A DNA stretch of 64,000 nucleotides from NCBI GenBank assembly GCA_914767715.1, contig OU612067.1:25580162-25644161 (forward strand), in the 5' to 3' direction. The stretch is from Membranipora membranacea. Taxonomy: Eukaryota > Bryozoa > Gymnolaemata > Cheilostomatida > Membraniporidae. The notes below the pieces were generated by a model that was not told the DNA's origin, ran no database searches, and saw only the letters and a program-made list of their open reading frames with translations. Both the position numbers and the translations under genes were made by a program. Positions 5,836 to 64,000 of the stretch are shown here, piece by piece (within the stretch, counting starts at the first letter, position 1; each line of letters opens with the position of its first letter).

Positions 5836-6061
5836 ATCTAAATCTAAAACATATCCTGAGCTTTGAGATTATAACGAAAACTTTACGTTCCGTTAATCCA
5901 CAGCAACACAGCTGTGTCAGTTAAAGTTTGATTAAACACAACCCGACAGTTTCCTGTATGAAATTGAAATACTATGAATGTGAATTTCATGTATGGCATC
6001 TGGTTATCACTTTATTTTGATCTTAAAAATTTAATCCTGCTGTGATAATTTGACGACGTGC

Positions 6062-9000: not shown

Positions 9001-9140
9001 CGTTTCCTATATGGCAGGAATTCAAAGATTGCTGGAACCGGATTATCTCCTCCTGCAGTAGTTGGTAACCACAATCGGGTAGATAACTTTACTACATCAC
9101 TCAGCTTGATGTAAGTATTCTCTACTATTTGTACCTCAGC
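6062..9140 (-). pseudogene. CocE/NonD-type hydrolase copy B, decayed pseudogene
   Basis: This is a degraded copy of the hydrolase in the same orientation as A and C. Remnants on the minus strand: exon 2 from 9140, fused near 8967 to the end of exon 3, which ends about 8894. The intron, the end of exon 2 and the first two thirds of exon 3 have been lost and the frame is broken there. Exon 4 lies near 8411-8322 and its donor is GC where copy C has GT. The long exon 7818-6527 has frame breaks where about 38 bases are missing near 7487, where about 16 are missing near 7140, and near 6988. The last exon is 6224-6062 with an intact TGA. No ATG mini-exon was found upstream. The catalytic Asp (GIADGY) segment is still recognisable near 7570, but no single open frame joins it to the serine region. 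Confidence 0.9.
8614..8699. repeat. GC-rich long hairpin (about 40-bp stem)
   Basis: Two arms of about 42 bases face each other with a two-base loop at 8656-8657 and one internal 3x3 bulge (GTA against TTT). The stem is very GC-rich and includes GCGATCGC and GGCGGTCGT, in sharp contrast to the AT-rich surroundings. It sits in a degenerate intron of pseudogene B. A further GC-richer stretch follows to about 8830. It could be a MITE or foldback insertion, and the palindrome alone gives no function. Confidence 0.8.
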
Positions 9141-10290: not shown

Positions 10291-10296
10291 TTTATT
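10291..10296 (-). terminator. Candidate polyadenylation signal of copy C
   Basis: AATAAA occurs on the minus strand about 405 bases past the TGA stop of copy C (10703-10701) and is followed by an A/T-rich tract. It is the first canonical hexamer noticed downstream of the gene. No transcript evidence is available. Confidence 0.35.
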
Positions 10297-10700
10297 TGTA
10301 CAATTGATGAATAACAATCGTGAAAAAGTGATTATCAAAGTCAACTGACACAGGTTTATAAAAAAGATAGTTCAGTACAAAAGCTCATAAAAATATCTGA
10401 AGCTTATTCTATATTCAATGAAGCCATCAAGTACAACCTGAATGTGAAACTCAATTTGCTCAATATTGTCTGCACTGATAGAGGGAATTCTTAATGCTAT
10501 TCTGAGCTTTGAGATTATTATGAAAATTATGCTGAGGGCGTTTCTTTCCCTGAGTCCGCAACAACGCCAGTATCAGTAGAAATTTGATTAAACACAACCG
10601 GCAGTCTCCTGAATGAAATATTTTCGATGTGAATGTCATGTATGGCAATTAGTTATCACTTTCATTTTAAATTTTAAATTGAATTCTGCGTGATGGTTTC

Positions 10701-13700: not shown

Positions 13701-14416
13701 AATACACTGACCCATTTTGAGCAAACACTTGATAGGTGACTTCATCTCTCTGAGTTGTCACATCCCGTTTCCTGTACGGCAGAAATTCAAAGATGGCTGG
13801 AACCGGATTATCTCCCCCTGCAGTAGTTGGTAACCACAATCGGGTAGACAACTTCACTCCATCACTCAGCTCAATGTAAGTATTCTCTATGATCTGTACC
13901 TCAGCCTTATAGAGAGGAAATAAATGTCAGGTATCATGAAAAGCCTTACAGTATTTGAAATGGTTGAACTTATTTAAATGCTTCCACTTTCTAGTTTACT
14001 GCTGTGTAAGTGTGATTCAAGAGATCCCTTCATCTTTTATGTCGCCTAAACTCTAGACAATGTGGAATCTGATTTTCAATGAAAGATATACAACCCCTAT
14101 TTGACCACCGATGGCTAAACGGCTATTGAGTTAATTTTATCAGCTCTTGCCATGAATCTCAAGCAGGTCCTGAAAAGTAACTTTGCCCTGTTGTAAATCC
14201 AGAACTTATCGTGTAGTTCCAAATTATGAAATTTGATCAGAATTGGTTATTTTCTAATCATAGGTAAAATGAAATAAAAATTAAATATGTGCTAACAAAC
14301 AGAAGAAAATGTTATGCACCCAGTATCTTTCAATTCGCTGAGTGTGACTGTAACGGAACTCACCTTTTCAGACGCCATATTGTTCTGATCTCTTTAAATC
14401 AACAGCAGCAGCAGGA
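10701..14416 (-). CDS. CocE/NonD-type serine hydrolase (X-Pro dipeptidyl-peptidase S15-like), copy C, complete
   Basis: This is a complete six-coding-exon gene: 14416-14364 (ATG 14378-14376, MASEK), 13905-13712, 13387-13204, 12827-12740, 12530-11189 and 10863-10701 (TGA). All introns are GT-AG. The coding length is 1986 bases, giving 661 residues in one frame. The protein is an alpha/beta hydrolase of the S15/CocE type: RVDMRGCGDSTG at 75-86, nucleophile elbow GISWGGF with Ser123, acid Asp243 in GIADGYS, and base His269 in GPWVHLYP. A C-terminal jelly-roll-like domain typical of X-Pro dipeptidyl-peptidases follows, and the tail is basic (KKYKKKFERN). No signal peptide or membrane segment is visible, so it is probably intracellular. 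Known relatives hydrolyse proline-containing dipeptide or ester bonds; the substrate here is unknown. The family is mainly bacterial, so an old horizontal transfer is possible, but the introns show it is a resident gene. Confidence 0.9.
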
Positions 14417-21081: not shown

Positions 21082-36172
<15,091 letters not shown>

Positions 36173-38570: not shown

Positions 38571-39626
38571 TCACTTTGTACTATAACCAAGCTTCTGAAG
38601 AAGACTTTCCTTAGTAGACTTATTGTTACACTTTGTAGTGTTTCGTTTGTCTACTGCTGGATGGAGTATGAGCATCTTCTGCAGAGTGCTTCGTTCTTCT
38701 GGGTCCTGGCTGTAACCTTTCTTCTTCATACACATGATTGCATTCGTTGTCATGTCACGCATTGATGTTTTGCCATCAGCTTGCTTAATCTGATCAGCAA
38801 TAGCACCAAGGAATGCTCCTCTTTCTGACATTCCTCCAACTACTGTTGAAATCAATAACAGAGTGTGCGCCCTGTCCAGTACTATGCTATTTCGCTGGCT
38901 TGTGGAGAGACCAGAATATACGGGTTGACAAGCCTGAATTATGACCACCTGTAAAATTCAATCATAGATATGTGTTGAATTTGTTAAGTCTTCAGACTCA
39001 GACATCGTAGAGGTAAGTTCTAAGTCGAAGTGATAACTAAAAGTCTCAAACACAGGGGAGGACGATTAACGGATAGTAACATTGTAACTAATTTGTACTT
39101 TGATCCACACAGCGGATATCCTGGTGCTATCTCCAGAATATCCAGTTATGATCCAATCTATGTAAATATATTCTAAGATAAACCTCACATTCACCTACCA
39201 ACGGGATGTTTGCAGGTAGCCTCGCCTTCAGCAGATCTAAAATATTTGATATCGGCATTTTAGAGTCATTGGCACCTGCTAGATTTCCGGCTTCTCCGTG
39301 TGACATCAGCGAGACAAAAAGTAGTGAGAGGCCTTCAGATAGCAGCTTACTGAGCTCACTATCGATGATGGGAGGTAGCGTCTTCGCATCAGTCCATTCG
39401 GATAAGCTGGTCGTGATCCCAACATGTGTTAAGCTGTCTCCGATGGCGTTAGCCTCCTCAGTAGCACCCTCTCTCTGATCTGTGCTATACAGCACTAATC
39501 CAAACGGCTTGACATGAGTCTGCATGATTGGTATGATGTACTGATCACTTCTATCAAAGAGCAGACTGATATCTTCTGTATTTAGTGGGTGTTTCTCTAC
39601 AAGCTCCTTCAGTGTCTTCGCCTCAC
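38571..39626 (-). CDS. Caspase-like protease domain exons
   Basis: Exons 39626-39199 and 38948-38571 carry a caspase (C14) fold. The start is FGLVLYSTDQREGATEEA, where the Arg aligns with the first S1-pocket Arg of caspases (as in SRSGTDVDA). It is followed by LLFVSLMSHGEAGNLAGAN with the catalytic His, and VVIIQACQPVYSG with the catalytic Cys. The small-subunit-like part reads LLLISTVVGGMSERGAFLGA. The intron falls four codons before IQAC (donor TTG/GTAGGT). The usual QACRG is QACQP here, and no long inter-subunit linker with obvious Asp sites is seen between large and small parts. Activity is likely, but the cleavage preference may not be strict Asp. Confidence 0.85.
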
Positions 39627-42600
39627 CTGATCAAAAACACGTCATTCAAATGATAGTTTTAACCAGTTATATACTTCGTATGCTCATCTGGGCATGGCCA
39701 CAGTAAAATAAGCGTATAATTCTCAGTTTTTTATTTTTTTATCAACATTGAAGACTGGACGAGATATAAATCGCAGGGTACGATCAACATTGCTGCCCTT
39801 AATGTTGTACTTATTTTATGCATATTTCAAACTTACTTGATAAGTTGATGTTTGAAACATACTGCTTGAGCACATCCTGTCCCTTTTCAACAACGACTGA
39901 ACCTGAAATGGAGATAATTGGGTGTTTAAAGCTGCTGATAGAGAGACCAAATATTCATTGATTCATTGTGTAGAGTGAGCAAAGCTTAGATGCGTGTTAA
40001 CACATCGATACTAAAGTGGAACACCGGAGCCACTCCCATAAACCACACATGTTCTCTATTCCATTCTAGTTCTCGTTCTGAAAATCGGCCCAAGGAGTGT
40101 GAAAATGAAGACCAATTACATTTTAGCGCAAAAATATAGATCTTTTAGCACTCATGTCGGAATAAATCAGCAAATTTCGATACTCTTCAGGTATATTTGA
40201 TTCATGAATATCTACTCACATGGATACATCAGCGGTGTTGGGATATCAGCATCTTGTGCACAGCTGAAAACCTCATCCCCACTGTAGATGTTACGAGCTG
40301 GTTCATTGGCTGCTAGAGTTTCTGTTTGGGACCAGGAGGGATCCACTTCTGTATGAGGAGACGGGTTGCTTGTAAGTAAGCAATGTGAACAGTAGAAAAC
40401 AGTCTCATAACGGACTCCTTTCCAAACAGATTTCAGCTCAGCAATCAGCTGTTGAAGAGAAGCCAGTTGTTTTGTCCAAGCCTCAGCGACGTTTTTAGGA
40501 AGAGCGAGAGTCAGTAGTGTGACACGGTTGTCAGAAGCATTGTGCAGCAGGTATTTCTGTATTCTGTTGCTTTGGGACACAACAGCACCATTAGTACCAA
40601 CAGCAGGAGAAGAGAATGGCTCGGAATTTTTATCCAGATATGCCGCTGTGATTAGTGAGAACACATAGCCAGGAACTTTAAGACCACGCAGGTACAAATC
40701 TACTTTAAGAGGTATACGGTTAGTAAAATCCCCTGACGCGTTGATCTTCCTAGTGGCAAAGTATGGTATGATGTATTTCTGATCACATGGTCTAGCATCT
40801 GGCCCACATAGATAGACTAGGTGAAATGATCTCAGAATTTCCACTGCAGCATCAGCTGGTAGTTGTGATTCTTTCTCCAACATATTTATGAGTAAAGCTG
40901 CTTCCATGACCCCAGACCTATTGTAAGTCGTTATCATATCCTGATATTTATGTTTTCCTATTGACTTGCCGTCATGTTCAAAAGGGATAAAGTTATCCAA
41001 ACGGGTCGACCAGTCTTTATCATGGGTGTGGCTATAGAGGATTTCTATCAGGCCAGTTATGATCTGGTGGCGGTGGAAGACATAACAGGAGAGCTTAGGA
41101 TTGTTTTTGAACCACATCAGTCGTCCGATTTCATGTAGATATTCCAGGGTCACGTGATCAGGGTCATTGGGGAACTTGATATCAATCTCTGAAAGTTTGA
41201 TAAACGGCTTGGTTGTTTCTGACTCGATATCAACAAGCATAACATACCAGCTGCCCGGTATTTCAGTATTCAATACGGCGCCTACAGCTACCAGCATTTC
41301 TTTAAGTGAGTCAATATCAGGTTTAGATGATTCGGTCGAGAAAACTGAAATCATATCAACCCTTATCAGAAGCTCTGAAATGTCAGTGAAGCTTTTCATG
41401 ATGAAGATTGGGCTCAGGGATGATGCCACATGTTTTTCGGACTGGATTATTTTGTGGCGTAATTTCTCGGTTGTGTCAATAAGCTGCTGTTTCCTCTGAT
41501 TGAAGCACTCATCAGATATCTTATCACAGTGAGTCAGAACTACTACTGGTCGACAGAGAGTAGGACAAGCTATGTACAGGTGGGACAGCCATTCGAGGCA
41601 AACATCCTGACATGCAGCTTCCTCCCCCTGCTGTACTACTAATCTGTCAAACTCTGCAATGTCAATCACAAGGAGAGGAACACTTTGCGACTTAAATGAC
41701 AGCTGGTAGCCAAAGTTATAGATTTTATGTCCTCCAAAGTCAACAAAGACCAGCTTAGTGTTTTGGTCGACAGCTGCCTCACAGACTTTGAATACTTTGG
41801 TAGCCTCATCTAACATCCCTTCAGTAGATGTTCGTGATGTGAGTACTCTTTTGTTCTGCTGAACACTCTTCACTAGACTTGTTTTCCCTGCTTCACTCTT
41901 CCCAATAACAGTCACAGGTATGAATCGCAGATTACTACCTTTTTCCAATTTGAGGTCTGAATAGTATTTTCTCACAGCAGTCACACCCTGTTTGCAGACA
42001 GCATATGGAGGAGATGTTAGTGCAGTACAGCCATCACAGTCAAAAGTTGTGAGTGTTTTGATGCTGAACAGGCTCTCAGGTAGTGTGGTGAGTGATGAGT
42101 TATCACTGATATCCAGTGCACGAAGGTTACTCAGCTCTCCTACGCTGCAATAATAAATTATGTTTTTTACTTCACGAGGAAAATCTACGATCTTCACTGT
42201 GTATGTATTTTTTACTTGCTGAACGAAAATCTCCATTTGCATTAGCATCATTAAAACTCTTTTGCTTTTTTGTTCTTTATTTGTCGGATAACCATGTTTG
42301 GTTATGGTAGGTAGTAATGAGTCAGAAAATATACTTAAGACTGTCCGCTATATCTTTAGTCCTTAATTTAGCATATTGCCGAATCCTGGTGTCAAGTTCT
42401 CAAACTCCTACTCATTAATGTAAGAACCCAATTTAGCTGGCAATTGCCAATAAAAACTTCAGGTGGTAGTGGGTAGACAACTAGCGCTAGAACAAAGGGG
42501 ATTCTCACTCTCCCCTAAATCCCCTAAATACCCTAAATTCCATTAGATCAGCAGTTGTAAGTTTATTAACAAAGTCACAATAAAACTTCCCATTACAATA

Positions 42601-43227
42601 TACCTATATATACTTTAACTTGCAAACAGCAGATGATATATATATATACTCTACTTCTCCACAGACTAACCACATACATTAAATGCAGTCAGAGCCATTT
42701 TGATATTTGGCCATATTTGATTTGCAATTTAGTAGATGGCTAAATTTTAACTGTGACCAACTAGTAAAAAATTATAATATTTCTTGATATTAGTATATAC
42801 CAGTTCATCATGTCATGTGATGACCATTGTAAATAAATTATATTGTTTATCAAAAACGCAAATTACTCAATATTACATTTTATGTTGATGTACTTGCAGT
42901 ATCTTTTTAATACATTTATCTAAAGTGATGAAATGATATTTCAACCAAAATTTCATTAGCCATAGAATGACTTCCTTGTGATCCAATATACATCTTTCAT
43001 CAAAAAGAGTTGATAGGTAAATGTTAGATTGATTTGCAGACTCGGACGTATAGGTATAGGATGTCAGTATAGGATGTCACACTCACCACTCAGGTAGCTG
43101 TTTGAGACCACAGTAACCCACACGTAACTCTCTCAGTGATCTCAGCTCACACAGCCACTCAGGTAATGTGTGCAGAGATGTATTACATGATACATTTAAT
43201 ACCTCCAGCTTAGTCAGTGACCTGATA
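38571..43227 (-). CDS. LRR-Roc-COR-caspase fusion protein (3' five exons)
   Basis: Five exons, 43227-43087, 42144-40220, 39902-39837, 39626-39199 and 38948-38571 (TGA), have GT-AG junctions and join in one frame (about 978 residues). Order of parts: LRR cassette, further LRRs (ELSNLRALDISDNSSLTTLP), Roc GTPase with P-loop GKSEAGKTS (about 41905-41877), DFGGH switch II (41741-41727) and a THCDK base-recognition motif, then a COR domain, a short linker, and a caspase-like domain with catalytic His in SHGEAG (codon 39300-39298) and Cys in IIQACQP (codon 38930-38928). Known Roco proteins (LRRK, MFHAS1, DAPK1) carry kinase or other outputs; here the output would be proteolysis. Function is inferred: ligand or damage sensing by LRRs, GTP-driven dimerisation by Roc-COR, protease activation. 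More LRR exons upstream probably belong to it; the start codon was not found. Confidence 0.88.
40220..42144 (-). CDS. Large exon encoding terminal LRRs, Roc GTPase and COR
   Basis: A single 1925-bp exon. It begins after TTATTATTGCAG and reads VGELSNLRALDISDNSS (LRR), a capping SPPYAVCKQGVTAVRKYY segment typical of the LRR-Roc junction, the Roc domain (GKSEAGKTS, FVDFGGHKIYNFGY, VVVLTHCDKI), then COR-like EYLHEIGRLMWFKNNPKLS and YVFHRHQIITGLIEIL. It ends ..PTPLMYP and splices in phase 1. There is no frame break over 641 codons, which argues strongly for selection. Confidence 0.92.
43087..43227 (-). CDS. LRR cassette exon 1 (intact, proximal)
   Basis: 141 bp (47 codons) encoding two LRR units ending in LPEW (start IRSLTKLEVLNVSCN, then LHTLPEWLCELRSLRELRV). 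It is entered in phase 2 and left in phase 2 (TG/), so it can be skipped or repeated without changing the frame. It splices directly to the Roc-COR exon at 42144. Confidence 0.9.
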
Positions 43228-43931
43228 CTGTAATATATACATGTATATATATATATATAATTATTAATACATCACATGAAATGAGAGGAGGAGCTTAGTA
43301 AACAAGTTATGCCGTATATCATAAGGATCTAATGGCAGCCCCTCAGTACGTAATCTTGTGTTTATAAAATCATCTCAAAGTATAATTTCCTTAGCACCGA
43401 TCTCGCTGCGACCAGGGGGGGGGGGGGAATTCTCCCTGCTGTGACAGATAGTTGACGACAAGAAGTGAAACGACAAATAATTATTTGTATGTCATACGCT
43501 ATATGATATAAGAATTCAAGACTAACTTCTAGTTGTATAGAAATAGAGGGCATTGGATATCCTGCATTCCATTTCTACATTGATTAACAATCGAGGATAA
43601 CATCTTCATATCTGCATCCAAAGATCAAAATTCAATAATAGCAAAAGCTCGAATATAAATATGAAATGCTCATTTATTGAATGTGAAGAAAAATGATAGA
43701 TAGTCACGGCTGAACAATATAAGAAATCATTTTTGAAAAAAATTAATTTTAGTCTGCATCCTTACTATGCAGCCTTACAATAAGTCATAGCTGGCGAGAA
43801 GGCAACCCATTTTTTCATCAACTTTATTTTTTAAGTTAACATTTAAAAAAATTGAAGATTATTGCAATATTTTTTTATCAGTGACAATGCTGTAGTAATT
43901 GACAGACTGAGAATAGCAGGTACAGACTCAC

Positions 43932-44035
43932 CACTCAGGTAGCTGTCTGAGATCACAGTCTCTCACATCTAACAATCTCAGTGCTCTCAGCTCACACAGC
44001 CCCTCAGGTAATGTGTGTATAGCTCTATTAACTGA
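43932..44035 (-). pseudogene. LRR cassette exon, 5' part lost to a repeat insertion
   Basis: The 3' 104 bases of a cassette (HTLPEGLCELRALRLLDV ... LPEW) with an intact GTGAGT donor. The 5' 37 bases are replaced at 44036 by the LINE-EN/(CCTAA)n/MITE composite. The junction is at the same codon as the insertion in the cassette at 55648, so it derives from the same event. It probably cannot be spliced in without a new acceptor. Confidence 0.8.
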
Positions 44036-44346
44036 GGATTATGCTGATTGACTTGAAATTTTAGAGCTGCCTACTCTCTGTGATTTTATTTCTGAGATGT
44101 CTAAAACTGTTTTTAACAAAATTGCGTCCAATGAAGACCATCCTCTTTTTAGTTGTGTAGTTTTTAACTGTGCAAAGGTATCCTCTTGCCTACATACCAT
44201 CTATCGCCCACCAAAGTGCAGGACTCAAAAGCGTTTAAAGATCTCTTTTCCGTACCACATGTTAGCTTTCAACAAAGTTTAAATTTCTCAATTTCATGTA
44301 CCAATCCAATTTTATCGCCTGTTGATACATGGATTAAAATAATAAG
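44036..44346 (+). mobile_element. LINE endonuclease fragment (copy 1)
   Basis: A plus-strand open frame (44097-44282) contains HTIYRPPK, the motif found near the C-terminal half of the apurinic-type endonuclase domain of LINEs (IYRPP). The fragment begins GGATTATGCTGATTGACTTG and runs into a CCTAA array at 44347. Copies are at 55752-56062 and 60249-60559. Confidence 0.55.
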
Positions 44347-44376
44347 CCTAACCTAACCTAACCTAACCTAACCTAA
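44347..44376 (+). repeat. (CCTAA)6 telomere-like array
   Basis: Six perfect CCTAA units between the LINE endonuclease fragment and the MITE-like element. On the other strand it reads TTAGG, the arthropod-type telomere unit, one base shorter than the TTAGGG of most animals. Confidence 0.9.
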
Positions 44377-44690
44377 TCGCTGGATCACATTGTCCCAGAT
44401 GACATTTGGATGCCATCCCAGATGTTTATCCCAGATGGTCCCAGTCTTATGTTCCCATCATAAAATTCATCCCAGACAAGCAGTTAGGTTTTTGTCTGGG
44501 ATAGTGCTGGGTGATGTTCACACTGTTTAGGATCGTCCCAGATAGTCCCAGATCAATCCAGATCATCCAAATGTCCGGTTCACATAGCACCCAGATGCAA
44601 AATGAGTTTGGGTCCGTCTGGGACAGCATCGGGAAAGTTTGACGCTTACGAACTTTCCAGATACTATCCCAGACGGACCCGTTATCCCAC
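44377..44690. mobile_element. MITE-like palindromic element, truncated copy 1
   Basis: It has the repeated motif TTCACATTGTCCCAGA in both orientations and a 71-nt hairpin at 44610-44680 (arms start GGGTCCGTCTGGGACAG). It shares order with 56089-56515 and 60615-61050 but ends abruptly at about 44680-44690, where an unrelated repeat begins. No transposase is encoded. Confidence 0.7.
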
Positions 44691-44935
44691 CTCCCGTTAT
44701 CCCATGAAGCCATTTCCCCCCTGGATGAGTTACCATGATGCCATTTTCATGCTTTGACAATTTCTCACCAATCCATTTTTCCACCAAGACATTTTCAGTT
44801 TGGGCTGTTTTCCGAACAAGCCATTTATCCTCCAAGATAAATTCCAAATTGACTGTTTTCCCACCAAGACAATTTGTCACACCATGCAGTTTTCCCGGCA
44901 TTGTTTTTTTTGACATATACTAACAGATTTCACGT
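44685..44935. repeat. Diverged tandem repeat block (copy 1)
   Basis: Units built around AAGCCATTT, CCACCAAGAC and related words recur every 25-60 bases. The block is repeated at 56660-56885, where it directly follows LRR-intron sequence. Open frames on either strand are by-products of the repeat. Confidence 0.55.
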
Positions 44936-45330
44936 CCAGTGAACGTTGTAAAAGGCAGTTTGGGTAATGGACCTGTGAGTTGATTTCATTGTTATAGTTT
45001 GTGGATTTTGTTTTGAGTTTTCCAGCGCACAAGTAATTGTACAACTGACTGATTTCAACAAAATGGTCAAAATGTTATAAAATACTTTTTCAGCAAAAGA
45101 ACTTTATTGTGCTTACAGCCTTTTCTGTACCAATCAGAGAAGAGCTGCGAGATCATAATAATGTAATTGAATATCTTACTGACCAATGGGCAGAACATAA
45201 ATTAGAGCATTGGGACATTTTTTCACACGCCATTTTGCTTCTACACATTATTCAAAAGTCGTACAGCATTCTTCGAGCCATATGTCTTGCTGAACAGATA
45301 TCTGGTAAATGCTGACAAGGTTATTAGCAA
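44936..45330. repeat. Dispersed repeat, copy 1 of 3
   Basis: The block starting TGGACCTGTGAGTTGA recurs at 61062-61430 and partly at 54755-54935. The plus open frame at 45109-45315 is shared in part by the other copies but has stops there (for example TAA at 61264), so it is not a conserved gene. Confidence 0.55.
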
Positions 45331-45529
45331 AATCCCTCTTTAAAATGAAGCTTACACCATGTGTGTATACTGCATGGCCTGACCAGGCATGTTAAAGTTT
45401 GTTGCACTAATTTTCAAGTTATTATCAATAACCACCAAACAATGTAAAGAAAATTAAACTCCTTTTGGGGTTTGAGGCTACAATTTTTTTCCGAGACAAT
45501 TTCATAACATCCAAGCTTTATCAAACTTT

Positions 45530-46345
45530 GGAATTGTTTCCTCTTGTAATAGTCGGGGATCCCAGGGTCAAAATCCATGTTGAAAGTGTAAAAGCTGAGT
45601 TTCATATATTATTTAGTATAAGTGTTATATTTTTGTATTCCACCCTCAGACCAGAAATCACAAGGGGTGTTTTATGGAATTTCACTCATGTTAATCAGGG
45701 GGGACAATTTTTTCCATAATCAACTTTTCAGAACATATCTTTAACTTGTGATTAGCTTTGTATAGGAATTAAAAATCATTTACCCAGATTGTTGATGTGC
45801 TGTCAATTGCGCAACGTCATGACCTTACATTAATTTTCTGTGTTTGTCATCTTGAGAGGTTTTTTTTCAATTATCTATGGGCTTGTCAGATACACTGAAT
45901 CAGCAGAAATTTTTTTAAGTGTCTAGAGAATAATAATTGAAGAATTTATTCAGCTATCTCTGATCAGTTGGAAATTATAATGAATTCAATTGAGTATGCC
46001 CCTTTATGAATGAAGTGAATTGACGTAACGCTAAACAATCATGATCGTATTGTGTGTAATTGTTGCAAATTTAAGTGTTTAGCTGTTTTAAAAAAGCTCT
46101 ACATTAACAGAAATCCAGGCTTGAGACATTCTGAACGATATCATATAATTCTAACTCATTATTCAGACACAATTAACCTGTTTTTTTACTATATATCATT
46201 ATTTATGTTTCGTTTTCTATTCGTAACAGAGGATTCTCAACGGTGCATTTACGATGTGTTATGTCTCAAAAACCAATTCAGACAAAATTGTGCGATCAAG
46301 CTATACTTTCATCAATTTTAATCACTGAAATCAAGACAATATCAT
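45530..46345 (+). repeat. Left arm of a long inverted repeat
   Basis: This is the reverse complement of 49885-50740, diverged and with small deletions (about 65 bases missing near 45750). The two arms enclose about 3.5 kb holding a LINE reverse transcriptase relic. The same arm recurs at about 61650-63080 (plus orientation) and 56890-57565 (minus orientation). Confidence 0.7.
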
Positions 46346-46739
46346 TTAAAGTTACAGAAGATTGGGGATGCACAGGAAAGATTCCATTCTATCGGTGAAC
46401 ACAAGCAGATGAATGAGCTGCCACAGATACTATGATTCAATTTTGCTTGCCTTTGGTCTATTCTAATTAACACATTATGTAGGACAGTAAAACAGTTAGA
46501 TATAAACGTCAGACAAATACACTCAACCTAAACCATGAGTTAATAAAGTTGCTAGCTCTGTTTAGTTACCAGGTTACAAACTCCAGCCTATCCAGCTTGG
46601 ACTTGAAGGAACCTATAAGTCATGCTCCGTTAACCAGTCCAGGTCAATCCTGTAAATAAATTTGAAAAGCCTAACGATTACTATGAGATGCACACTTGGG
46701 GAGGTAGTAGGCAAATATTCATGAGAATGACGCCTTGCT

Positions 46740-48830
46740 GAGGTGTGCTGATCTTGAGAGATGTTCTTACTAAGTACTTAAGCATTGTCGTCGTGGTAAT
46801 GGCTAAACACTTTGAGTCTGCGGTCACATCTGCGTCCGAGAGCTTGGGAAGTTTTGGAGTTCTAAAGACCAGTGGTGTTTGTTTTTTTGTTATTCCGTCT
46901 CATTATGCAGAAAAGACTTGCAGCCCTCCTTTGCACAGCTTCAAGCCTGTTGGCCAGACCATCATTCACACAGTTTCATGCGGCCAATGCACATCAGCAC
47001 CAGTCTTACTGGTTGGCTGTATGTGTCTTTTTCACAGCTTTGGAGATGGTCAGAGCGTTGCACCTATTAAACCTTAATGTGCTGTTAGTTTTGGAAGTGA
47101 TGTTGATTATGTGAGTTCGCCAGGTTAGCTTGCTGTTAAAGGTAACTCCCAGATATTTGACACCTTTGAGCTCTAAGTATTTTAGTGTGGTGTTGTTACA
47201 GTGGCGCTGAGGGGGCCAATAATGCTTTGAGAAAGTCAAGAGTTGCCTTCTCATGTGGTCGATCTCAAAGTCAAATCTTCCAACAAGCTTGAGAGGGTTT
47301 GAAGAACATCCCGCAAGTCCTGGCGGTTTTGGGTTGTATTGTATACCATTATGTCTTCCAGTAGTGTATTCATAGCATGGGCCAGGGGGCCATGGTCCTA
47401 CCATCCTACCACTACCACCCCATCAATTTTGAAAAAAACTCTTAAAATTCCCATAAGTGTTTTAAATACGCAATGACTCTATTTACGATTATCAATAACA
47501 GGTGATCAGGGGGCGCCTTGTGTAATATGTATGGATAATGAAGCAATAAAGCACCAATGAAGCTGTTTTATAATGGCAAATTTCAGCTTGCTATGAGGTT
47601 TAGAGTTCATCAACACATCAAAACTGATACATGTGAGCTATCCTTCAGCGCCATGGCCGGCCCTAAAACATACTTTGGGCCAACTTGAACAAACAGCCTC
47701 TGAACATTGCATGTTCTAAATTGGTTCGACACTATATAATAAATGTTCACCGATTCTTTTTCAGTTCTAAGTATCGATCACAGTAGAGATTAAATGATGT
47801 CCCTCCCTGTAACCCTAAGATCCCTGTGGCCAAATTATTGTCAATATTCTTCTCAAAAAGGACTGGAATGTCTCACAACTGCCTCTGATTTTTGATAGTT
47901 TTCTGGGGGAGGTCCCCCTTACCCTCTGGCGGGAAGGCGCTGAAGCACCCCTCCCGCCCCCATCCCGCCTGGCCCCACCACTTCAAAACCCATGGACACA
48001 GCCCTGATGTCATCTGCAAATAAGCGGACTATGCATTTAGTGTTCTCAGGTAAGTCATTGATGTAATACTTGAACAGAGTAGATTCTATGACTGATCCTA
48101 GGGGTACTACTGATATCCCATCGGCCATTGATGGTTCATCACTATCACCCAAAGCTCTCTGCTTTCTTCCAGACAAGAAGTCTTCTATGAATAAGACAAC
48201 TTGGAACATTGAACTAGCTTGTCAACCAGAAAACAGCAATCAGAGTTACTTGAATCTGAAAAAGGACTTACCGGGGGTTGCTTGCCCTCAGGGAAGGTGG
48301 TCGAGGGCTGGAGACCTGACCGTCATTCTTTTGAGAACTCTGGTACTAATACCATCTTGTCCGGGTGCCTATTTGACTTTGAGGGATATTAGTTTTTTCT
48401 GTACGCCCTAAGGGGCAATGATGTTTTCAGGCATCTTGGAGGCGAGTGTGAGGTATTGGTATGGGATGGGGTCTGAAGGATGTGAGAATACTGACATGAA
48501 TAGTTTATTTTGAACTTCTGCCTTACCTGCCAGTCAAATATGCCAAAAATCTGTTGAGCTATTCCTCTTGACTGTTATCCTCATCAGTAAACATTCTGTG
48601 GACATACTCCGGATGTTGTCTCCTCATCATTTTTGACCACTTGCCCGCAGGTGATACAATCAACCTTTATTTACTTACTTACTTTACTAAATAAGGCTAC
48701 TGTGCCTTTTACACCTCTTTTTCAATCTGTTCATCTTCAATCTCATGGAGTTGCTTGTCAATCCAGGGATGCGAGTCTCTGCGTCATTACTGCTTCTGGG
48801 GCACATAGATGTCCATGCCTTTAGATTAGT
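46740..48830 (-). mobile_element. LINE reverse transcriptase relic (copy 1)
   Basis: Minus-strand frame 48209-47919 carries a reverse transcriptase core: EDFLSGRKQRAL, VPLGSVIESTLF, YYINDLPEN and the catalytic box LFADDIRAVS (a YADD variant). Frame 47404-47006 carries the thumb motif LKGVKYLGVTFNSKLTWRTHI. The two are separated by a block (about 47297-47885) missing from the second copy at 63.1 kb, plus GC-rich repeat DNA (47930-47990). The coding frames are broken, so the element is inactive. Confidence 0.75.
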
Positions 48831-49884
48831 GACAACAAGGGTGTTATTCTGTCAGGAGGAGAGGCTCAAAGATGGACTGTGTTAAACCGTAATTGCCGAG
48901 TATGTCTCTGAATTTGGTATGTAGGGTTGGTATGTGGAGCCAGATGTTAGTGTCATATTTGACCAATCGAAGCTATAAACTCGAGTAGGCCATCTTGTTT
49001 CTGTTATATTAAAGCATTCTTAAATTGATTCGCCTAAACTCAAGCCTGGTAATGTGAAGGTACATACTTTTTGCTACAATATTTGTGGAATTTCTGTGAC
49101 GGGGATCCAACATCAGAAGATAAAATATAGTGGTTGTGGTCTGAAAAAACTACCTGGCGTTATTCGGGGCCTTAGATATCCTAATTTCTCAAATAAACTC
49201 CTTTGTGATTATTTGGAACCAACAGTGATGCCATAACCTTTCCATCAGCGGTGTAAGGAAGACGAAAAGATAGTTGGGACATTAAACTGGAAAGCGAGTC
49301 ATACATCTTTCCATCATTCAGTGAGTGCCCCAGGTTTTTCCAATACCATCCCTTGTGTACAACAGGAATTCTAAATTTTTGGCAGCAAAAAAACAAATCT
49401 TCTTGGTGTAATGAACCCAAAAATGACCAAAAGTGTAATCGATTGAATTTCCTACTTGAGGCTCAGTTCTAGACTGATGAGGCTATTATATGACCAATTT
49501 TGATCAAAATGTGGTGCGTTTTTTTTATCCTGTAACTGTATGCCTGATTGTTACTGCAATAGACATGTGCTTTCCCTCTGTGCATCCTACAATGAGATTA
49601 TGAATCAGTCAGCCTCCAAATGAACCTCCATCCATCTGATGACTTGCAATTACTTTTCTAACAGCTTTATTCCCTGTACAATACGGGACCTGAAACTGAC
49701 CAAGCACTAAACAAGGCCAATACACCAATGTAGGATGGGTAACGGTTACTGCTCTTATCCTGACGCCCCTACCCACGGGATGGTAAAATGGAAAAATGTT
49801 ATTCTATTATGTAGGCTAAACCTATGTCCAACAATCAAGGCACGACTCTTCTGCCAGCTAGGTATCTAGAGTGATGTTGTCTTG
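48831..49884. other. Unassigned repeat-rich DNA inside the inverted repeat
   Basis: No domain is recognised. Open frames at 49054-49236 (plus) and 49420-49181 (minus) lack family motifs. By position it might be the degraded upstream part of the LINE that lies on the minus strand. Confidence 0.3.
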
Positions 49885-53132: not shown

Positions 53133-53273
53133 CACTCAGGTAGGTGTTTGAGACCACTGTCTATCACATGTAATTCCCTCATTGATCTCAGCTCACACAG
53201 CCACTCAGGTAATGTGTGCAGAGATTCATTACCCCATACAAATAATACCTCCAGCTTGGTCAGTGATCTGATA
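53133..53273 (-). CDS. LRR cassette exon (intact, middle)
   Basis: 141 bp, same phase and splice context as the proximal cassette (acceptor ATTACAG, donor GTGAGT). It encodes IRSLTKLEVLFVWGN, LHTLPEWLCELRSMRELHV and LKHLPEW. Variable residues lie at the exposed positions of the repeat (FVWGNE against NVSCNT), as expected for a binding face. It lies about 10 kb from the Roc-COR exon, separated by repeats, so membership in the same transcript is inferred. Confidence 0.75.
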
Positions 53274-54151
53274 CTGTAATATATACATGCATATATATAA
53301 TAACACATCATGTGAGATGAGGAGCAGGATCCACCCCATTTCTTCTATCTCATTTCCGCACCAGGCCGTCAGATAGTCACGGCTGAACAACACCAGTAAT
53401 TATTCTTGAGACATATAATTTTTAGTCTGAATCCGTACTATGCAGCCTTACAATAAGTCATAGCTGGCAGGAAGGCAACATAATTTTTCATCACTTTACT
53501 TTTTAAGTTATTTATGTATTTATTTTAAGTATTTATTTTAATTTATGTAGTTATTTTAAGTTAATTATGTGATTATTTAAGTTATTTAAGCCATTTATGT
53601 CACATCATGAAAAACATTAGTAATAATAAATTGTTGCTGACACTAAAAGTATATATTTATATATAAGTTAATATATCAACAAATTGAGGATTGAGGATTG
53701 CAAATATCTTTTATGAGTGACAATGCTGTAGTAAATAATAGACTGAGATTAAGAGATACAGACTCACTGTCAAACAGCTAGCTATGATGGAATTTTCTAC
53801 ACTTAGTTACTACATTAGTTATCAATGGAGGATTTTAATTTCATATTTGAATCCTAAAATATAAAACTCAGACAGAAGTTTGGCAAATTCCAATGTGAAA
53901 GCTAATTTATTGGAATGTAGAGATAAAAGATAATATGGTTATCGTTATCAACGTAAGACATTATTCTTACTTAAACTTGACCGATTTCTCAAGTCTGAAT
54001 CCTTATAACACAGCCTCATGATAATGTATCGCTGGTAAAAGACAACCTGTATATTCACTTTAGCTTAGTTATTTATAGTTCACAGCCTCTTCAAAGGTAA
54101 GGATTATTGAAGCAATAAAAAACAAAATATGAATCGACTCGACAGACTCAC

Positions 54152-54207
54152 CACTCAGGTAGCTGTCTGAGATCACAATCTCTAACACGTAACTCACGCA
54201 GCGAAAA
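54152..54207 (-). pseudogene. LRR cassette 3' fragment
   Basis: Only the last 18 or so codons of a cassette remain (SLRELRVRDCDLRQLPEW) with the GTGAGT donor. Upstream it runs into unrelated A/T-rich DNA (54208-54420) of unknown origin, which stays open in frame for some distance. Confidence 0.7.
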
Positions 54208-55647
54208 TTTTTTTGTAATTTTTTGTGCCTTGTCATAATTTTCATCTGACAGGGCCCACCCTCTTGCAAGGAGGGAATTTTTTTGCAAATGTTTGTGAAA
54301 TGAAAGGTTATATGGAACTTTTCGGTGATAATGCAGAAGCACTTGTAACAAAAAGACTTTTTAATACAAATCTGCCCTTCGTCCAAAAAGACGGTTTTGC
54401 AAAAAATACTACTTACTAATTTGTTTGAGAACTTTGTAATTTTAACAATAACATCCTAAGGTCACTGTTTTGTGTTATTTCGAAAAGAAAACAACATGAG
54501 AAAGTTGTTGGTACCAGTAACACAGTTCTGATGATTTTGTGTAGAGTGGCTGGGGAAGCTTTGCTACATCATAATACTGAATGGGCACTATTTTAAAATA
54601 TCTTGTACTTACAGAGCGTTATGCATTCTTGGGTCTCCACATAACGAAAGAGGAATCAAATTTGATGTGTAATAACTTTTGTAGGCACAAGGTTACAAGT
54701 AGGCCGCAAAAGATTACCCATTAGGCCGCACAGGCTAAAAGGCCGCAAGTTGCCCACAGCTGAATTAGGGCATTGGGACATTTTTTCACACGCCATTTTG
54801 CTACTACACATTATTCAAAAGTCATACAGCATTCTTTGAGCCATATGTATTGCTGAAGAGATATCTGGTAAACGCTGACAAGGTTATTGGCAAAATCCCT
54901 CTTTAAAATGAAGCTTACACCATATGTGTACACTGCATGGCTAGATCAAGTTTGCTTCATTTTTCCCCCATTGGAATTGCCCCCCCCCCCAATACTGACA
55001 CGGCAAATCCAACGGGGTAAAATGGAACAAACAAACATCTACTGCATGGCCTGACCATGCATGTTAAAGTTTGTTGTACTAATTTTCAAGCAATTATCAA
55101 TAACCACCAAACAATGTAAAGAAAATTAAACTCCTTTTGGGGTTTGAGGCTACAATTTTTTCCGAGACAATTTCATAATTATTCAAGCTTTATCAAACTT
55201 TGGAATTGTATCCTCTTGTAAAGAGAAGAGACAACCGCTTAAAATCAGAAAGGCAATTTGTGAAGACCAATGAGCATGAACATTAAAAAACTGTCAAACA
55301 ACTTGATTACTACATTAGTTATCAATGGAGGATTATAATTTTATATTTGAATCCTAAAATCTAAAATTCAGACAGATGTTTGGCAAATTCCAAGGTGAAA
55401 GCTAATTTATTGGAATGAAGAAATAAAAGATAATATAGTTATCGTTATCAACGTTAGACATTATTCTTAAACTTGACAGATTTCTCAAGTCTGAATCCTT
55501 ATAATCCAGCCTTTTGATAATGTATCGCTGGTAAAAGACAACCTGTTTATTCACTTTAGCTCAGTTATTCATATTTCACAGCCTCTTCAGAGGTAAGGAT
55601 TATTGAAGAAATAAAAAACAAAATATGAATCGACTCGACAGACTCAC

Positions 55648-56572
55648 CACTCAGGTAGCTGTCTGAGATCACAATCTCTAACACTTAACTCCCTCAGTGC
55701 TCTCAGCTCACACAGCCACACAGGTAATGTGTGTAGAGCTTTATTACCTGAGGATTATGCTGATTGACTTGAATCTTTAGAGCTGCCTACTCTCTGTGAT
55801 TTTATTTCTGAGATGTCTAAAACTGTTTTCAACAATATTGAGTCCAATGAAGACCATCCTCTTTTTAGTTGTGTTGTTTTTAACTGTGCAAAGGTATCCT
55901 CTTGCCTACATACCATCTATCGCCCACCAAAGTGCAGGACTCAAAAGCGTTTAAAGAGCTTTTTTCCTTACCACATGTCAGCTTTCAACAAAGTTTAAAT
56001 TTCTCATTTTCATGTTCCAATCCAATTTCATCGCTTGCTGATACATGGATTAAAATAATAAGCCTAACCTAACCTAAACCTAACCTAATGGCTGTATACC
56101 ATTGTCCCAGATGACATTGGGATGCCATCCCAGATGCTTATCCCAGATGGTCCAAGTCTTATGTTCACATTATAAAATTCCTCCCAGACAAGCAGTTAGG
56201 ATTTTGTCTGGGATAGTGCTGGGATGATGTTCACATTGTTTAGGATAGTCCAAGATTGACCCGCATCATGCAAATGTCTGGTTCACATAGCACCCAGATG
56301 CAAAATGAGTCCGGGTCCGTCTGGGACAGCATCGGGAAAGTTTGGTGCTTACGAACTTTCCAGATACTGTCCCAGACGGACCCAGACAGTCTGGGATTGT
56401 GTCATTTTCATGTTCACATTGACTGGGATGGCTATGGTATGGTCGTCTGGGACAATGTTCACCAGCCATTATGGCTGGTGCACATTGTCCCAGACGATCA
56501 TCCCAGATAACTTAACCTAACCTAACCTAACCTGATACATTTAATACCTCCAGCTGAGTCAGTGAACTGATG
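55648..56572 (-). pseudogene. LRR cassette exon split by a 779-bp insertion
   Basis: The two halves, 56572-56536 and 55751-55648, add to exactly 141 bp when one copy of the 5-bp duplication CCTGA (55747-55751 and 56531-56535) is counted. They give a normal cassette in frame (LEVLNVSGN, then LHTLPVWLCELRA). The insertion 55752-56530 contains a LINE endonuclease fragment, CCTAA arrays and a MITE-like element. Splice sites at both ends survive. Confidence 0.88.
55752..56530. mobile_element. Composite insertion in an LRR exon (LINE-EN, CCTAA, MITE-like)
   Basis: The 779-bp insert is bounded by the target duplication CCTGA. Its parts are: LINE endonuclease fragment 55752-56062, CCTAA array 56063-56088 (one unit has an extra A), MITE-like element 56089-56515 with a 71-nt hairpin at 56313-56383, and three CCTAA units at 56516-56530. 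CCTAA on both sides suggests that the MITE-like element jumped into the CCTAA tail of the LINE fragment. Confidence 0.85.
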
Positions 56573-56884: not shown

Positions 56885-59800
56885 GTTTTTGTGTCTGAAA
56901 ATGAGTTAAAATTATATGATAATGTTCAGAGTGTCTCTAGCTTGGATTTCTATTAATGAAGACCTTTTTTAAAACAGCTAAACACTTAGAATTTGCAACA
57001 ATGACATACAATACGATCATGATCATATAGCATTACGTCACTTCACTCCATTCATAAAGGGGCATACTCGGATTGAAATCATTATAATTCCCAACTGATC
57101 AGAGATAGCTGAATAAGTTTTTCAATTATCATTCTCTAGACACATAAAAATTTCTGCTGATTCAGTTTATCTGACAAGCCCATAGATAATTGAAAAAAAC
57201 CTTTCAAGATGACAAACACAAAAAATTAATGTAACGTCATGACGTTGCGCTATTGGCTGCACATCAACAATCCGGGTAAATGATTTTTAATTCCTATGCA
57301 AAGCTAATGGTATCAGGAAACTATATCCAGAGTATTAGCTCTAAATATTAAAAAATTTAATCACAAGTTAAAGATATGTTTTGAATGGGTGATTATGGAA
57401 AAAGTTGTCCCCCCTCATTAACGTGAGTGAAATTCCATAAAACCCCCCTTGTGATTCCTGTTCTGAGGGTGGAATATACAAATATAACACTTAAACTCAA
57501 TAATGTATGAAACTCAGCTTTTACACTTTTAACACGGATTTTGACCCCTGGATCTCCGACTACAAAGAGAAGAGACAACCGCTTAAAATCAGAAAGGCAA
57601 TTCGTGAAGACCAATGAGCATGAACATTAATAATTCCATTGAAGAATCCGCCCTATCAAATAAGGGTGGCCATTTATTGTAGGCCAGAGACAGATGATGT
57701 CTGGTAATCTATACTTACATAACTTGTCATTGAACTTTGCGAAGAGTTTTTCGAATGCCAAATGGGATTTCGGCAAACAAAAATTAATAAACACCTTGAG
57801 AACAAATAATATCAACCTAATTTTACGTAATCGTCCTATCCTTCCAAATCACTTTCAATTACATCAGACGACATCTGAAACTGAATCTCATGAAGATGAG
57901 AGGAGTTAAGAAATTTAGTGTATGAATTCAAAGCATCCAATTTTGAGAGATACAGCAGAAACTCATTTAAAACCACTTAGAGGGGTTCAATTACTTGTAA
58001 TGATAGGTATTCTAAATGTGAATCTTGGTGACCATGATATTCTTTCTTTTCAAAAGACAACATTTACAAAAAAGGGATAAAGAGGCACATTGCAGAGAGA
58101 TGATTAATGCATGTCTTCTTGTTTACAAGAAAAGGCAAAGCTGTCATCTATTTCTATGAGAATTGTTCCACATGCGCACTGTACTCGCTGTCTACCGGGG
58201 GCCCTTGGGCTCTTCGCCAGCTTCACTAGGAATTAGGCTAAAGATCTGCTCACTCTCCTCTAGAACTCACATTGTATTGGTGAATTAATACTGATTGAAT
58301 GCAAAATATTATTTACAATAATGAATTATTGTGGGGATATGGCTAAGTGGGAAAATCACTTGCATGGATGACGGGAGGTGGGAAAATGACATTGAGAAGT
58401 TTTCCTATACTATATACTAACTAGAAATGCAGGGGTGTATACTAAGAGATGTAATAGAGATGTAAATAAAATCTGGCTTCACCGAGATTCGAACTCAGGC
58501 CTCTCGCATGAAGCCATCTAATCCAGGTGTTTAAATATAACGATGTAGTGGGTGTAAGTAGTAATAAATAGAAAAGTAAACCTCATAGTAGTGGTGTTAC
58601 TCCTCCTTTGTCATTATGGTCTAAGAACCAATTTGGCTTCACCAAGTATTAAACTTGGGCTTCTTGCGCTGTGATCGAGCTCACTAGCCACTCAGCCACG
58701 CCTGCCCACTGGAGCTCACGGATTTAAATTGAGTATGAATTGGAAAAGTAAGCTGTTGTGTAATTTTGTTAAAATTTTCTGTTTCTCAAGCTTTCATGGC
58801 AGAGATCAGGCAAAGAAAGTGTAAAATATATTATATGCACACCCTCATCTGGTTTTACTATACATTTGAGGTTGAAGACAGGGCTTTGATTCAGCCATTT
58901 CTTCTATTTTTTAAAAAACACGTTGTGTACTTAACTGTGAAGTGGTTCAGATACAATGTTGAAAATTTAGGAGCTAGCTTGCAATAATTATGCAAGAACC
59001 AAAATTAAATCTTAGAGCCTTCTAATGTAAAAATACAGAAATAAATTTACCCTTTTATAATCTTTTTTATCCAAAATAAAATTTATATTGAACATCAGAC
59101 TGAGAATAGCAGGTACATACTCACCACTCAGGTAGGTGTTTGAGACCACACAAGCTCACATGTAACTCTCTCAGTGATCTCAGCTCACACAGCCACTCAG
59201 GTAATGTGTGTAGAGCTCCATCAACTGATACATTTAATATCTCCAGCTGAGTCAGTGACCTGATACTGTAATATATACATGTATATATATAATAATACAT
59301 CATGTGAGATGAGGAGCAGGATCCACCCCATTTCTTCTATCTCATTTTCGCACCAGGCCGTTAGATAGCCACGGCTGAACAACATTAGTAATTATTCTTG
59401 AGACATATAATTGTTAGTCTGCATCCGTACTATGCAGCCTTACAATAAGTCATAGTTGGCAGGAAGGCAACATAATTTTTCATCACTTTATTTTTTAAGT
59501 TATTTATGTATTTATTTTATGTATTTATTTTATTTTATGTAGTTATTTTAAGTTATTTATGTGATTATTTAAGTTATTTAAGCCATTTATGTCACATCAT
59601 GAAAAACATTAGTAATAATGAATTGTTGCTGACACTAAAAGTATATATTTATATAGAAGTTAATATTTCAACAAATTGAGGACTACGGTTTGCAAATATC
59701 TTTTATCAGTGACAATGCTGTAGTAAATAATAGACTGAGATTAAGAGATACAGACTCACTGTCAAACAACTAGCTATGATGGAATTTTCTACACTTAATT

Positions 59801-60145
59801 ACTACATTAGTTATCAATGGAGGATTTTAATTTTATATTTGAATCCTAATATCTAAAACTCAGACAGAAGTTTGGCAAATTCAAATGTGAAAGCTAATTT
59901 ATTGGAATGTAGAGATAAAAGATAATATGGTTATCGTTATCAACGTAAGACATTATTCTTACTTAAACTTGACCGATTTCTCAAGTCTGAATCCTTAAAA
60001 TACAGCTTTTTGATAATGTATCGCTGGTAAAAATACAACCTGTTTATCCACTTTAGCTTAGTTATTTATATTTCACAGCCTCTTCAAAGGTAAGGATTAT
60101 TGAAGAAATAAAAAACAAAATATGAATTGACTCGACAGCCTCACC
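56885..60145. repeat. Segmental duplication, copy 2
   Basis: Counterpart of 50030-54150, with a few percent divergence and lacking the internal tandem duplication at 51.2-51.8 kb. It contains the intact distal LRR cassette exon at 59125-59265. Confidence 0.8.
59125..59265 (-). CDS. LRR cassette exon (intact, distal)
   Basis: 141 bp in the standard phase with ATTACAG acceptor and GTGAGT donor. It encodes IRSLTQLEILNVSVD, LHTLPEWLCELRSLRELHV and LKHLPEW. It is embedded in a segment duplicated from around 53.1 kb. It is the most upstream intact cassette in the window; no start codon exon or signal peptide was found beyond it. Confidence 0.75.
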
Positions 60146-60248
60146 ACTCAGGTAGCTGTCTGAGATCACAATCTCTAACACTTAACTCCCTCGGTGCTCT
60201 CAGCTCACACAGCCACACAGGTAATGTGTGTAGAGCTTTATTACCTGA
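60145..60248 (-). pseudogene. LRR cassette 3' half, interrupted by insertion
   Basis: The last 104 bases of a cassette (LHTLPVWLCELRA, then LPEW), broken at CCTGA (60244-60248) by the same composite insertion as at 55752. The 5' half is not found on the far side of the insertion (after 61050), so this copy was rearranged further. Confidence 0.8.
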
Positions 60249-60559
60249 GGATTATGCTGATTGACTTGAATTTTTAGAGCTGCCTACTCTCTGTGATTTT
60301 ATTTCTGAGATGTCTAAAACTGTTTTTAACAATATTGCGTCCAATGAAGACCATCCTCTTTTTAGCTTTGTTGATTTTAAATGTGCAAAGGTATCCTCTT
60401 GCCTACATACCATCTATCGCCCACCAAAGTGCAGGACTCAAAAGCCATTAAAGAGCTTTTTTCCTTACCACACGTCAGCTTTCAACAAAGTTTAGATTTC
60501 TCATTTTCATGTACCAATCAAATTTTATCGCCTGTTGATACATGGATTAAAATAATAAA
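60249..60559 (+). mobile_element. LINE endonuclease fragment (copy 3)
   Basis: Same fragment as at 44036 and 55752, with the HTIYRPPK motif in the open frame 60310-60495. It enters the long CCTAA array at 60560. Confidence 0.55.
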
Positions 60560-60614
60560 CCTAACCTAACCTAACCTAACCTAACCTAACCGAACCTAAC
60601 CTAACCTAACCTAA
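60560..60614 (+). repeat. (CCTAA)11 telomere-like array
   Basis: Eleven pentamers, one of them CCGAA. It is the longest of the arrays in this window and lies between the LINE fragment and the MITE-like element. Confidence 0.92.
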
Positions 60615-63089: not shown

Positions 63090-64000
63090 ATTTTAGTGTG
63101 GTGTTGTTACAGTGGTGCTGAGTGTGGCCAATGATGCTTTGTAAAAGTCAAGAGTTGCCATCTCATGTGGTCGATCTCAAAGTCAAATCTTCCAACAAGC
63201 TTGGGAGGGTTTGAGGGTCTGATTTTTGATAGTTTCCTGGGGGAGATCCCCCTTACCCTCTGGCGGGAAGGCGCTGAACCAGGTCCCTCCCGCACCCATC
63301 CCGCCTGGCCCTACCACTTCAAAACCCATGGACACAGCCCTGATGTCATCTGCAAATAAGCGGACTATGCGTTTAGTGTTTTCAGGTAAGTCATTGATGT
63401 AATACTGGAACAGAGTAGATTCTATGACTGATCCTAGGGGTACTACTGATATCACATCGGCCATTGATGATTCATCACTATCACCCAACGCTCTCTGCTT
63501 TCTTCCAGACAAGAAGTCTTCTATGAATAAGACAACTTGGAACATTGAACTAGCTTGTCAACCAGAAACCAGCAATCAGAGTTACCTGAATCTGAAAAAG
63601 AATTTACCAGGGGTTGCTTGCCCCCAGGGAAGGTTGTTGAGGGCTGGAGACCTGGCCGCCATTCTTTTGAGAACTCGGGTACTAATACCATCTTGTACGG
63701 GTGCCTATTTGACTTTCAGGGATATTAGGTGTTTCTGTACGCCCTAAGGGGCAATGATGTTTTCAGGCATCTTGGAGGCGAGTGTGAGGTATTGCTATGG
63801 GATGGGGTCTGAAGGATGTGAGAATACTGACGTGAATTGTTTATTTTGAACTTCTGCCTTGCCTGCCAGTCAAATGTGCCAAAAATCTGTTGAGCTATTC
63901 CTCTTGACTGTTATCCTCATCAGTAAACATTCTGTGGACATACTCCGGATGTTGTTTCCTCATCATTTTGACCACTTGCCCGCAGGTGATACAATTAACC
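63090..64000 (-). mobile_element. LINE reverse transcriptase relic (copy 2), cut by the window edge
   Basis: Minus-strand frame 63545-63183 has the same reverse transcriptase core as 48209-47919, including VPLGSVIESTLF and LFADDIRAVS. It lacks the 585-base block present at 47297-47885 and joins the inverted-repeat arm directly near 63085. It continues beyond 64000. Confidence 0.75.

Follow-up and report, generated by a model that had tools for sequence, protein, structure and literature searches.

We analysed a 64,000-nucleotide stretch of the Membranipora membranacea genome (the window), which spans C3:25580162-25644161 in an assembly of 18 contigs totalling 339 Mb. On the reverse strand of this window lie five exons that together would encode a single protein chain in which leucine-rich repeats (LRRs) and a Roc-COR GTPase module are followed by a caspase. 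In the direction of transcription, these exons (E1 to E5) are the following.

43087..43227, reverse strand: E1, an LRR exon of type A with two LRRs; phase 2-2, acceptor TTACAG, donor GTGAGT
40220..42144, reverse strand: E2, a single exon with the last LRRs, the Roc GTPase and the COR region
39837..39902, reverse strand: E3, a 22-codon spacer of 66 nt; phase 1-1
39199..39626, reverse strand: E4, the p20 part of the caspase with a catalytic-type MSHG; ends in phase 0
38571..38948, reverse strand: E5, IIQAC (with the nucleophile), the p10 part and the stop codon

An AG acceptor precedes each of E1 to E5, a GT donor follows each of E1 to E4, and the phases are compatible. The introns measure, from E1 to E5, 942, 317, 210 and 250 nt, and the G+C content of the exons (0.39-0.47) exceeds that of the introns (0.32-0.38). 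When joined, the exons give 978 codons and then a stop, with no internal stops, and omission of E3 leaves the reading frame intact. The order along the 978-aa chain is LRRs, Roc-COR, spacer and caspase p20/p10. The chain carries GKSEAGKTS, DFGGH, THCDK, MSHG and IIQAC, so that both the five-exon join without a frame break and the Roc and caspase motifs claimed in an earlier, model-generated reading of this DNA (the original prediction) are present in the sequence. That reading had placed the gene at 38571..43227; the fused order holds over this span, which covers only the 3' part of the gene, as further LRR exons lie upstream. No first exon of the gene was found upstream of E1. We infer that transcripts are spliced as E1-E5 and, judged from its sequence, the predicted product is a single chain with LRRs as the sensor, Roc-COR as the GTPase switch and a caspase at its C-terminus.

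The joined chain matches LRR_8 with 33.8 bits. The Roc profile (PF08477) scores 27.6 bits in E2 alone (cut-off 27) and 26.9 bits in the full chain, and the Pfam COR-A profile gives 17.5 and 16.2 bits, both below its cut-off of 35.3. Because COR-A stays under its cut-off, we assigned COR by fold. An AlphaFold 2 (AF2) model of E2 matches the Roc-COR of 6hlu, 3dpu, LRRK1 and LRRK2 over nearly the entire exon, and the fold of this exon resembles LRRK2, LRRK1 and bacterial Roco; the modelled fold settles the prediction that COR directly follows Roc. Near the end of COR, the last part of E2 (40220-40400, reverse strand) holds a CxHC motif and another conserved Cys in a 26-sequence alignment, and this group possibly binds metal.

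The Peptidase_C14 profile (PF00656) gives 15.2 bits with E4 alone, 21.0 bits with E5 alone and 43.5 bits with the joined 268 aa, against a cut-off of 21.4. Therefore, the E4-E5 join adds signal. C14 was absent from the matches listed for the full 978-aa chain, an absence that we attribute to HMMER's filters. The C14 fold, on whose profile support the original prediction had staked the fusion, is thus matched well above the cut-off; of the other two profiles that it proposed for the joined product, Roc is matched in E2 alone and falls just under its cut-off in the full chain, and COR-A is not matched, COR being recovered by fold.

The same domain order, which the original prediction had suggested seeking in other genomes, recurs within this one. 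The assembly holds at least 148 Roc matches (150 of 372 candidates were scored), and at least 62 of the matches listed lie within open frames of at least 640 aa. From those 62 we sampled 24 loci, chosen for their long frames: 20 across C2, C3, C5, C8, C9 and C10, and then four from C3. An E2-like exon is present in all of the first 20 (26-96% identity), and the other four have the long exon that was used in the tree described below. Clear caspase exons lie downstream on the same strand in 22 of the 24 loci, nine of them window-type (QACQ) and 13 canonical (HG...QAC, with QAC[AS]G as the motif in place of QACQ). Window-type E4 and E5 are found in L011, L017, L018, L022 and L028, and in L029-L032, the last four of which are outside the profile and are matched nonetheless (E 1e-75 to 5.6e-34). 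The two other loci, L024 and L026, have only a weak N-terminal p20-like piece; that of L024 scores 16.1 bits for C14, under the cut-off, and in L026 an HG...QAS exon lies some 7 kb farther downstream and perhaps belongs to another gene. No motif of this kind was seen on the opposite strand. Among the 15 loci without window-type exons, Pfam scoring covered the exons of 10 (all except L012, L014, L015, L025 and L026), and nine of these give C14 at 41-53 bits.

The exon structure recurs as well. The phases of the E2 donor, the E4 acceptor and donor, and the E5 acceptor are the same in L017, L018, L022 and L028, a comparison that omits L011, whose matches stop before the exon ends. A phase-1 donor closes the Roc-COR exon in 23 of the 24 loci, the exception being L023. 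E3 is 95% identical (21 aa) in L028, and E3-like short peptides were found by motif in six of the 24 loci (L010, L011, L014, L020, L025 and L026). L028, a paralog at 96% identity, lies about 90 kb away; window positions 38571-49283 recur at C3:25701400-25716300 (L028 and L033), with exons 95-97% identical in protein and flanks 96.7% identical in DNA. The 5 kb upstream of L028, a 96.7% duplicate of window positions 49283-44679, contains no recognisable first exon.

We compared nonsynonymous with synonymous divergence (dN/dS) between paralogs. For the window gene against L028, dN/dS is 0.26 in Roc-COR, 0.22 in E4 and 0.35 in E5, and synonymous divergence is similar in the three parts (0.059, 0.079 and 0.048, respectively). 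For L018 against L022, the corresponding dN/dS values are 0.66, 0.29 and 0.56. Thus, purifying selection acts on the caspase exons, which are maintained alongside the GTPase. Since clear caspase exons recur in 22 of 24 loci, phases match and selection is purifying, the fusion is, as read from these sequences, a gene family and not a gene-model error; likewise, its recurrence, clear in those 22 loci and weak in two, indicates that the domain order is no accident.

In a tree of 25 Roc-COR exons (the 24 loci and the window) together with a sequence from Watersipora, the window-type label requires two changes, both forced by well-supported branches, and placement is unsure for the long branches L023, Watersipora, L021, L009, L019 and L016. 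L011, which is window-type, groups with L010 and L014, both of which are canonical. The L011 locus (2483-6753) and L010 share 91.7% DNA identity through the Roc-COR exon and the short next exon and diverge beyond it. L011 then has a window-type caspase and, farther down, a 69% copy of the canonical exon in which the HG and QAC motifs are lost. Most simply read, L011 acquired a second caspase module behind a receptor that already existed, and the older module is decaying, which suggests that effectors may be swapped between near-identical Roc-COR units.

Several observations weigh against a working receptor-protease of this kind, most of them concerning the window-type caspase itself. This domain is diverged; its SHG and QAC motifs align, weakly, to CED-3 (8jol) and to a chain named Caspase (3sip). 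In phmmer searches of PDB, its best match is Metacaspase-4 (E 0.012; 0.24 for the p10 stretch), followed by CED-3 (E 0.031), with caspase-8 and caspase-3 at E >1. The p10 part does not align to solved animal caspases, and its S1-pocket residue is not placeable by alignment, although candidate arginines for the basic S1 pocket, the source of Asp specificity in caspases, are conserved among paralogs. A model of E5 alone, in whose alignment the first residue was taken as Met from a GTG codon, is poor, with a predicted local distance difference test score (pLDDT) of 47.7. Of the canonical loci, only L009, L015, L021 and L027 show the p10 part, by motif, and LRRs in the paralogs are seen within exon 2 only, with the N-terminus outside the joined chain.

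The strongest alternative builds on this divergence and holds that the fusion is real but that the caspase of the window subfamily is a pseudo-protease, acting as a regulator or decoy for the canonical Roco-caspases. Such a role has a precedent in cFLIP. QACQ in place of the canonical QAC[AS]G, and the absence of the SWR motif of p10, both fit this explanation. Nevertheless, the His of MSHG, the Cys of QAC and the Arg of R[ED]G[AS] are kept in the window, L011, L017, L018, L022 and L028, and the caspase exons show the constraint against L028 described above (dN/dS 0.22-0.35). We consider a pseudo-protease unlikely, and the caspase is predicted from sequence to be proteolytically active.

A second alternative is that the locus holds two adjacent genes, an LRR-Roc-COR gene that ends near 40220 and a small caspase gene that starts inside E4, at a Met just before p20. 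An in-frame Met does lie in E4 shortly ahead of the caspase fold, and retention of the intron after E2 would terminate the chain at once (PCE-stop). In protein databases, scores for the Roc-COR exon were computed for the 7999 candidates sharing most words. Among these scored candidates are 47 strong relatives (E <= 5e-71), 46 of them on ena, jgi or lgn contigs that are presumably metagenomic. At the end of Roc-COR, 37 of the 47 show a 'PC' motif. A residue follows this motif in 36 of the 37, and in every one of the 36 it is E, K, M or R, which is the pattern expected from reading through a donor of the form T|GTRAG, T|GTATG or T|GTAGG. The 10 relatives without PC by this pattern comprise the Watersipora model, sequences that seem to be fragments or to have rearranged ends, and P0046 and P0047, which do end in PC in a form that the pattern misses. 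A weaker signature marks the 5' end of the exon, where an upstream Ser is found in 14 of the 25 relatives having residues there (alignment A1). Because the ends of the relatives look like donor read-through, the Roc-COR exon appears from these sequences to be normally internal, as its conserved phase-1 donor also argues. Furthermore, the open frame runs upstream of the Met in E4 to the E4 acceptor, and caspase exons are clear in 22 of 24 loci and weak in two, with identical phases in the four compared. Two separate genes are thus very improbable.

Least probable of all is an ordinary MFHAS1-like Roco scaffold with a passive C-terminal leftover and no sensing role: the best named relative is indeed an MFHAS1 homolog without a visible caspase motif, but the family members examined have retained the caspase module under constraint. 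This relative, the only named one among the 47, is a 936-aa protein (P0040) of the bryozoan Watersipora subatra, 32% identical across the whole query, and no caspase motif was seen in its 936 aa.

Two database hits, P0001 (98%) and P0073 (97%, to E5), cite one JGI contig of 3337 bases. We considered whether this contig was another copy of the window gene and rejected this, given that P0073 is by eye the same as E5 of L028; more likely, the contig is the L028 copy. No E4 open frame from this contig appeared among the hits of the search that returned P0073. Among 3891 candidates, no long protein with the caspase of the window gene was found at E <= 1. No relatives were confirmed in viral contigs or prokaryote genome contigs, NCBIfam and PADLOC scans returned nothing of use, and Rfam and tRNA scans were empty.

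Upstream of E1, the window contains further LRR exons, which are candidates for the same transcript.

43931..44030, reverse strand: probable upstream LRR exon of type B; its phase-2 donor fits E1, and its acceptor and the preceding exon are uncertain
53133..53273, reverse strand: LRR exon of type A, phase 2-2, a candidate alternative or array exon
54151..54204, reverse strand: partial LRR exon, possibly a remnant
55647..55751, reverse strand: LRR exon of type B
59125..59265, reverse strand: LRR exon of type A, phase 2-2, a candidate alternative or array exon
60144..60248, reverse strand: LRR exon of type B

The exons at 53 and 59 kb encode two LRRs each, those at 44.0, 55.7 and 60.2 kb are shorter, and all donors are in a phase that fits E1 or E2. 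Between 53273-53133 and 59265-59125, 22 of 141 bases differ, compared with 51 of 1026 in the nearby flanks (Fisher p 1.6e-5). A wider comparison of ±2.5 kb, which aligns badly in windows at about 54.2-55.8 kb, shows no excess in the exon (495 of 3589 bases differ, p 0.53). The dN/dS values of the three pairs of type A exons are 0.68, 2.29 and 0.69 and are therefore not uniformly >1. Among the three type A copies, all six positions that we assigned to the concave face from LRR geometry are variable, compared with eight of 40 others. Since the wider comparison and the pairwise dN/dS are mixed, diversification of the LRR exons on the concave face is suggestive only.

Short CCTAA/AACCT arrays, with a TTAGG-like telomeric unit, lie inside the gene region at 44347-44376 and 60558-60614. 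Reverse-transcriptase-like fragments with an FADD-type motif lie in the duplicated flanks at 47922-48221 and 63186-63557 (reverse strand), the former without a Pfam match. Elsewhere in the window, 597-14000 (reverse strand) holds repeated X-Pro dipeptidyl-peptidase-like hydrolase exons, apparently of tandem gene copies, with Pfam S15/PepX_C matches at 11188-12567 and 597-1022 (reverse strand) and similar peptides elsewhere in that region. At 35042-35458 (reverse strand), the palm domain of poly(A) polymerase is matched weakly (20.5 bits, cut-off 27), and the sequence resembles an exon of a non-canonical poly(A) polymerase.

The original prediction proposed that sensing, switching and proteolysis are coupled in one chain, and the fusion and the C14 domain give this idea support from sequence. 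Initiator caspases are activated by proximity. In the mechanism that we propose, a ligand or damage signal would meet the LRRs on their variable concave face, and the Roc-COR module would then shift its nucleotide and oligomeric state. The tethered caspase domains would thereby be brought together or released and become active by proximity, and the active caspase would cut substrates, such that cell death or inflammation starts. We hold the fused family with a receptor-protease role in general to be likely, and the proximity step on its own to be about evenly balanced; ligand sensing, GTP control, proteolysis and a death output are what this arrangement would predict. Roc-COR mediates dimerisation in Roco proteins (PMC6337361). 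Counting against a simple version of the mechanism, GTP-bound CtRoco, the bacterial model, is monomeric, which is opposite to simple GTP-driven dimerisation (PMC11052575). It therefore cannot be assumed whether GTP activates or restrains the protease.

LRRK1 and LRRK2 have a kinase and WD40 after COR. Unlike this group, the protein studied here has a caspase in that position, and no kinase is among the Pfam matches of the joined chain, which was read to its stop. MFHAS1/MASL1 proteins, which include the best named full-length relative, likewise have LRR-Roc-COR without a kinase; MFHAS1 is described as LRR and RocCOR only (PMC6337361), whereas here C14 follows in frame. DAPK1 is also a Roco protein tied to cell death, but it has a kinase before Roc-COR, no LRR and a terminal death domain (PMC6337361). 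Brown-algal ROCO genes, whose LRR exons shuffle, share phase-2 LRR exons, variation of concave residues and a candidate role as immune receptors with the genes described here, and their similar LRR variation pattern is backed by site-model tests; they differ in having single-LRR exons of 72 bp, compared with two-LRR exons of 141 nt here, and the text contains no mention of a caspase (PMC11378527).

The caspase-NLR apoptosome and inflammasome likewise consist of a sensor, an NTP switch and a caspase. In that pathway, these are separate proteins coupled via death-fold adaptors, whereas here they form a single chain, and no Pfam match to NACHT, NB-ARC or a death fold was found in the joined chain (E1-E5; the N-terminus lies outside it). 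The adaptor role is also noted in PMC8195603. Other animal combinations have been described: Roco proteins of placozoans that carry CARD, death and other domains (PMC4104024), an anemone gene combining kinase, death, TIR and Roc/COR (PMC5094078), and, in Dysidea avara, CASc and COR named in the legend of an NLR figure that may show related architectures (PMC12909245). We found no description of an animal LRR-Roc-COR-caspase in open-licence PMC full text, which omits most subscription papers.

The closest parallel is bacterial. In bacterial LRR-AP-GTPase(Roc)-COR proteins, at least 24 domains, one of them a caspase, are reported at the C-terminal position (PMC8195603), which contradicts the claim of the original prediction that known Roco proteins end in a kinase, a death domain or no catalytic output. 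These bacterial conflict proteins, like those described here, are ordered LRR, Roc, COR and then an effector, possibly a caspase, and occur as multiple paralogs per genome (PMC8195603). Their architecture of LRR-Roc-COR with a variable C-terminal effector is found here with two caspase types over 22 loci. Compared with the at least 24 bacterial effectors (PMC8195603), the differences are a spliced gene, animal-type SHG/QAC and, in the 24 loci, two caspase types only. The architecture is thus already described in bacteria, and what appears to be new, as far as the searched texts show, is an animal family with a constrained caspase and an apparent effector swap. On the broadest reading, which in our judgement is as apt to fail as to hold, the genome encodes a family of probably at least 60 one-chain death receptors. 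Their LRR exons would diversify on the ligand face, a GTP switch would follow, and the caspase built into the chain would have been exchanged for another type between near-identical receptors. Such a family would be the animal equivalent of the Roc-COR effector systems of bacteria and would take the place of adaptor-based apoptosomes.

In animals, caspases are usually engaged through adaptors and death folds. If the receptors described here work as proposed, a hard-wired sensor, GTP switch and caspase would constitute another route to caspase control. Roco GTPases, the Parkinson's protein LRRK2 among them, would gain a link to innate immunity, and animal cell death would be related to the caspase-bearing Roc-COR conflict proteins of bacteria. 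The effect of the nucleotide state of Roc-COR on a tethered effector would also become directly testable, with peptide cleavage as the readout.

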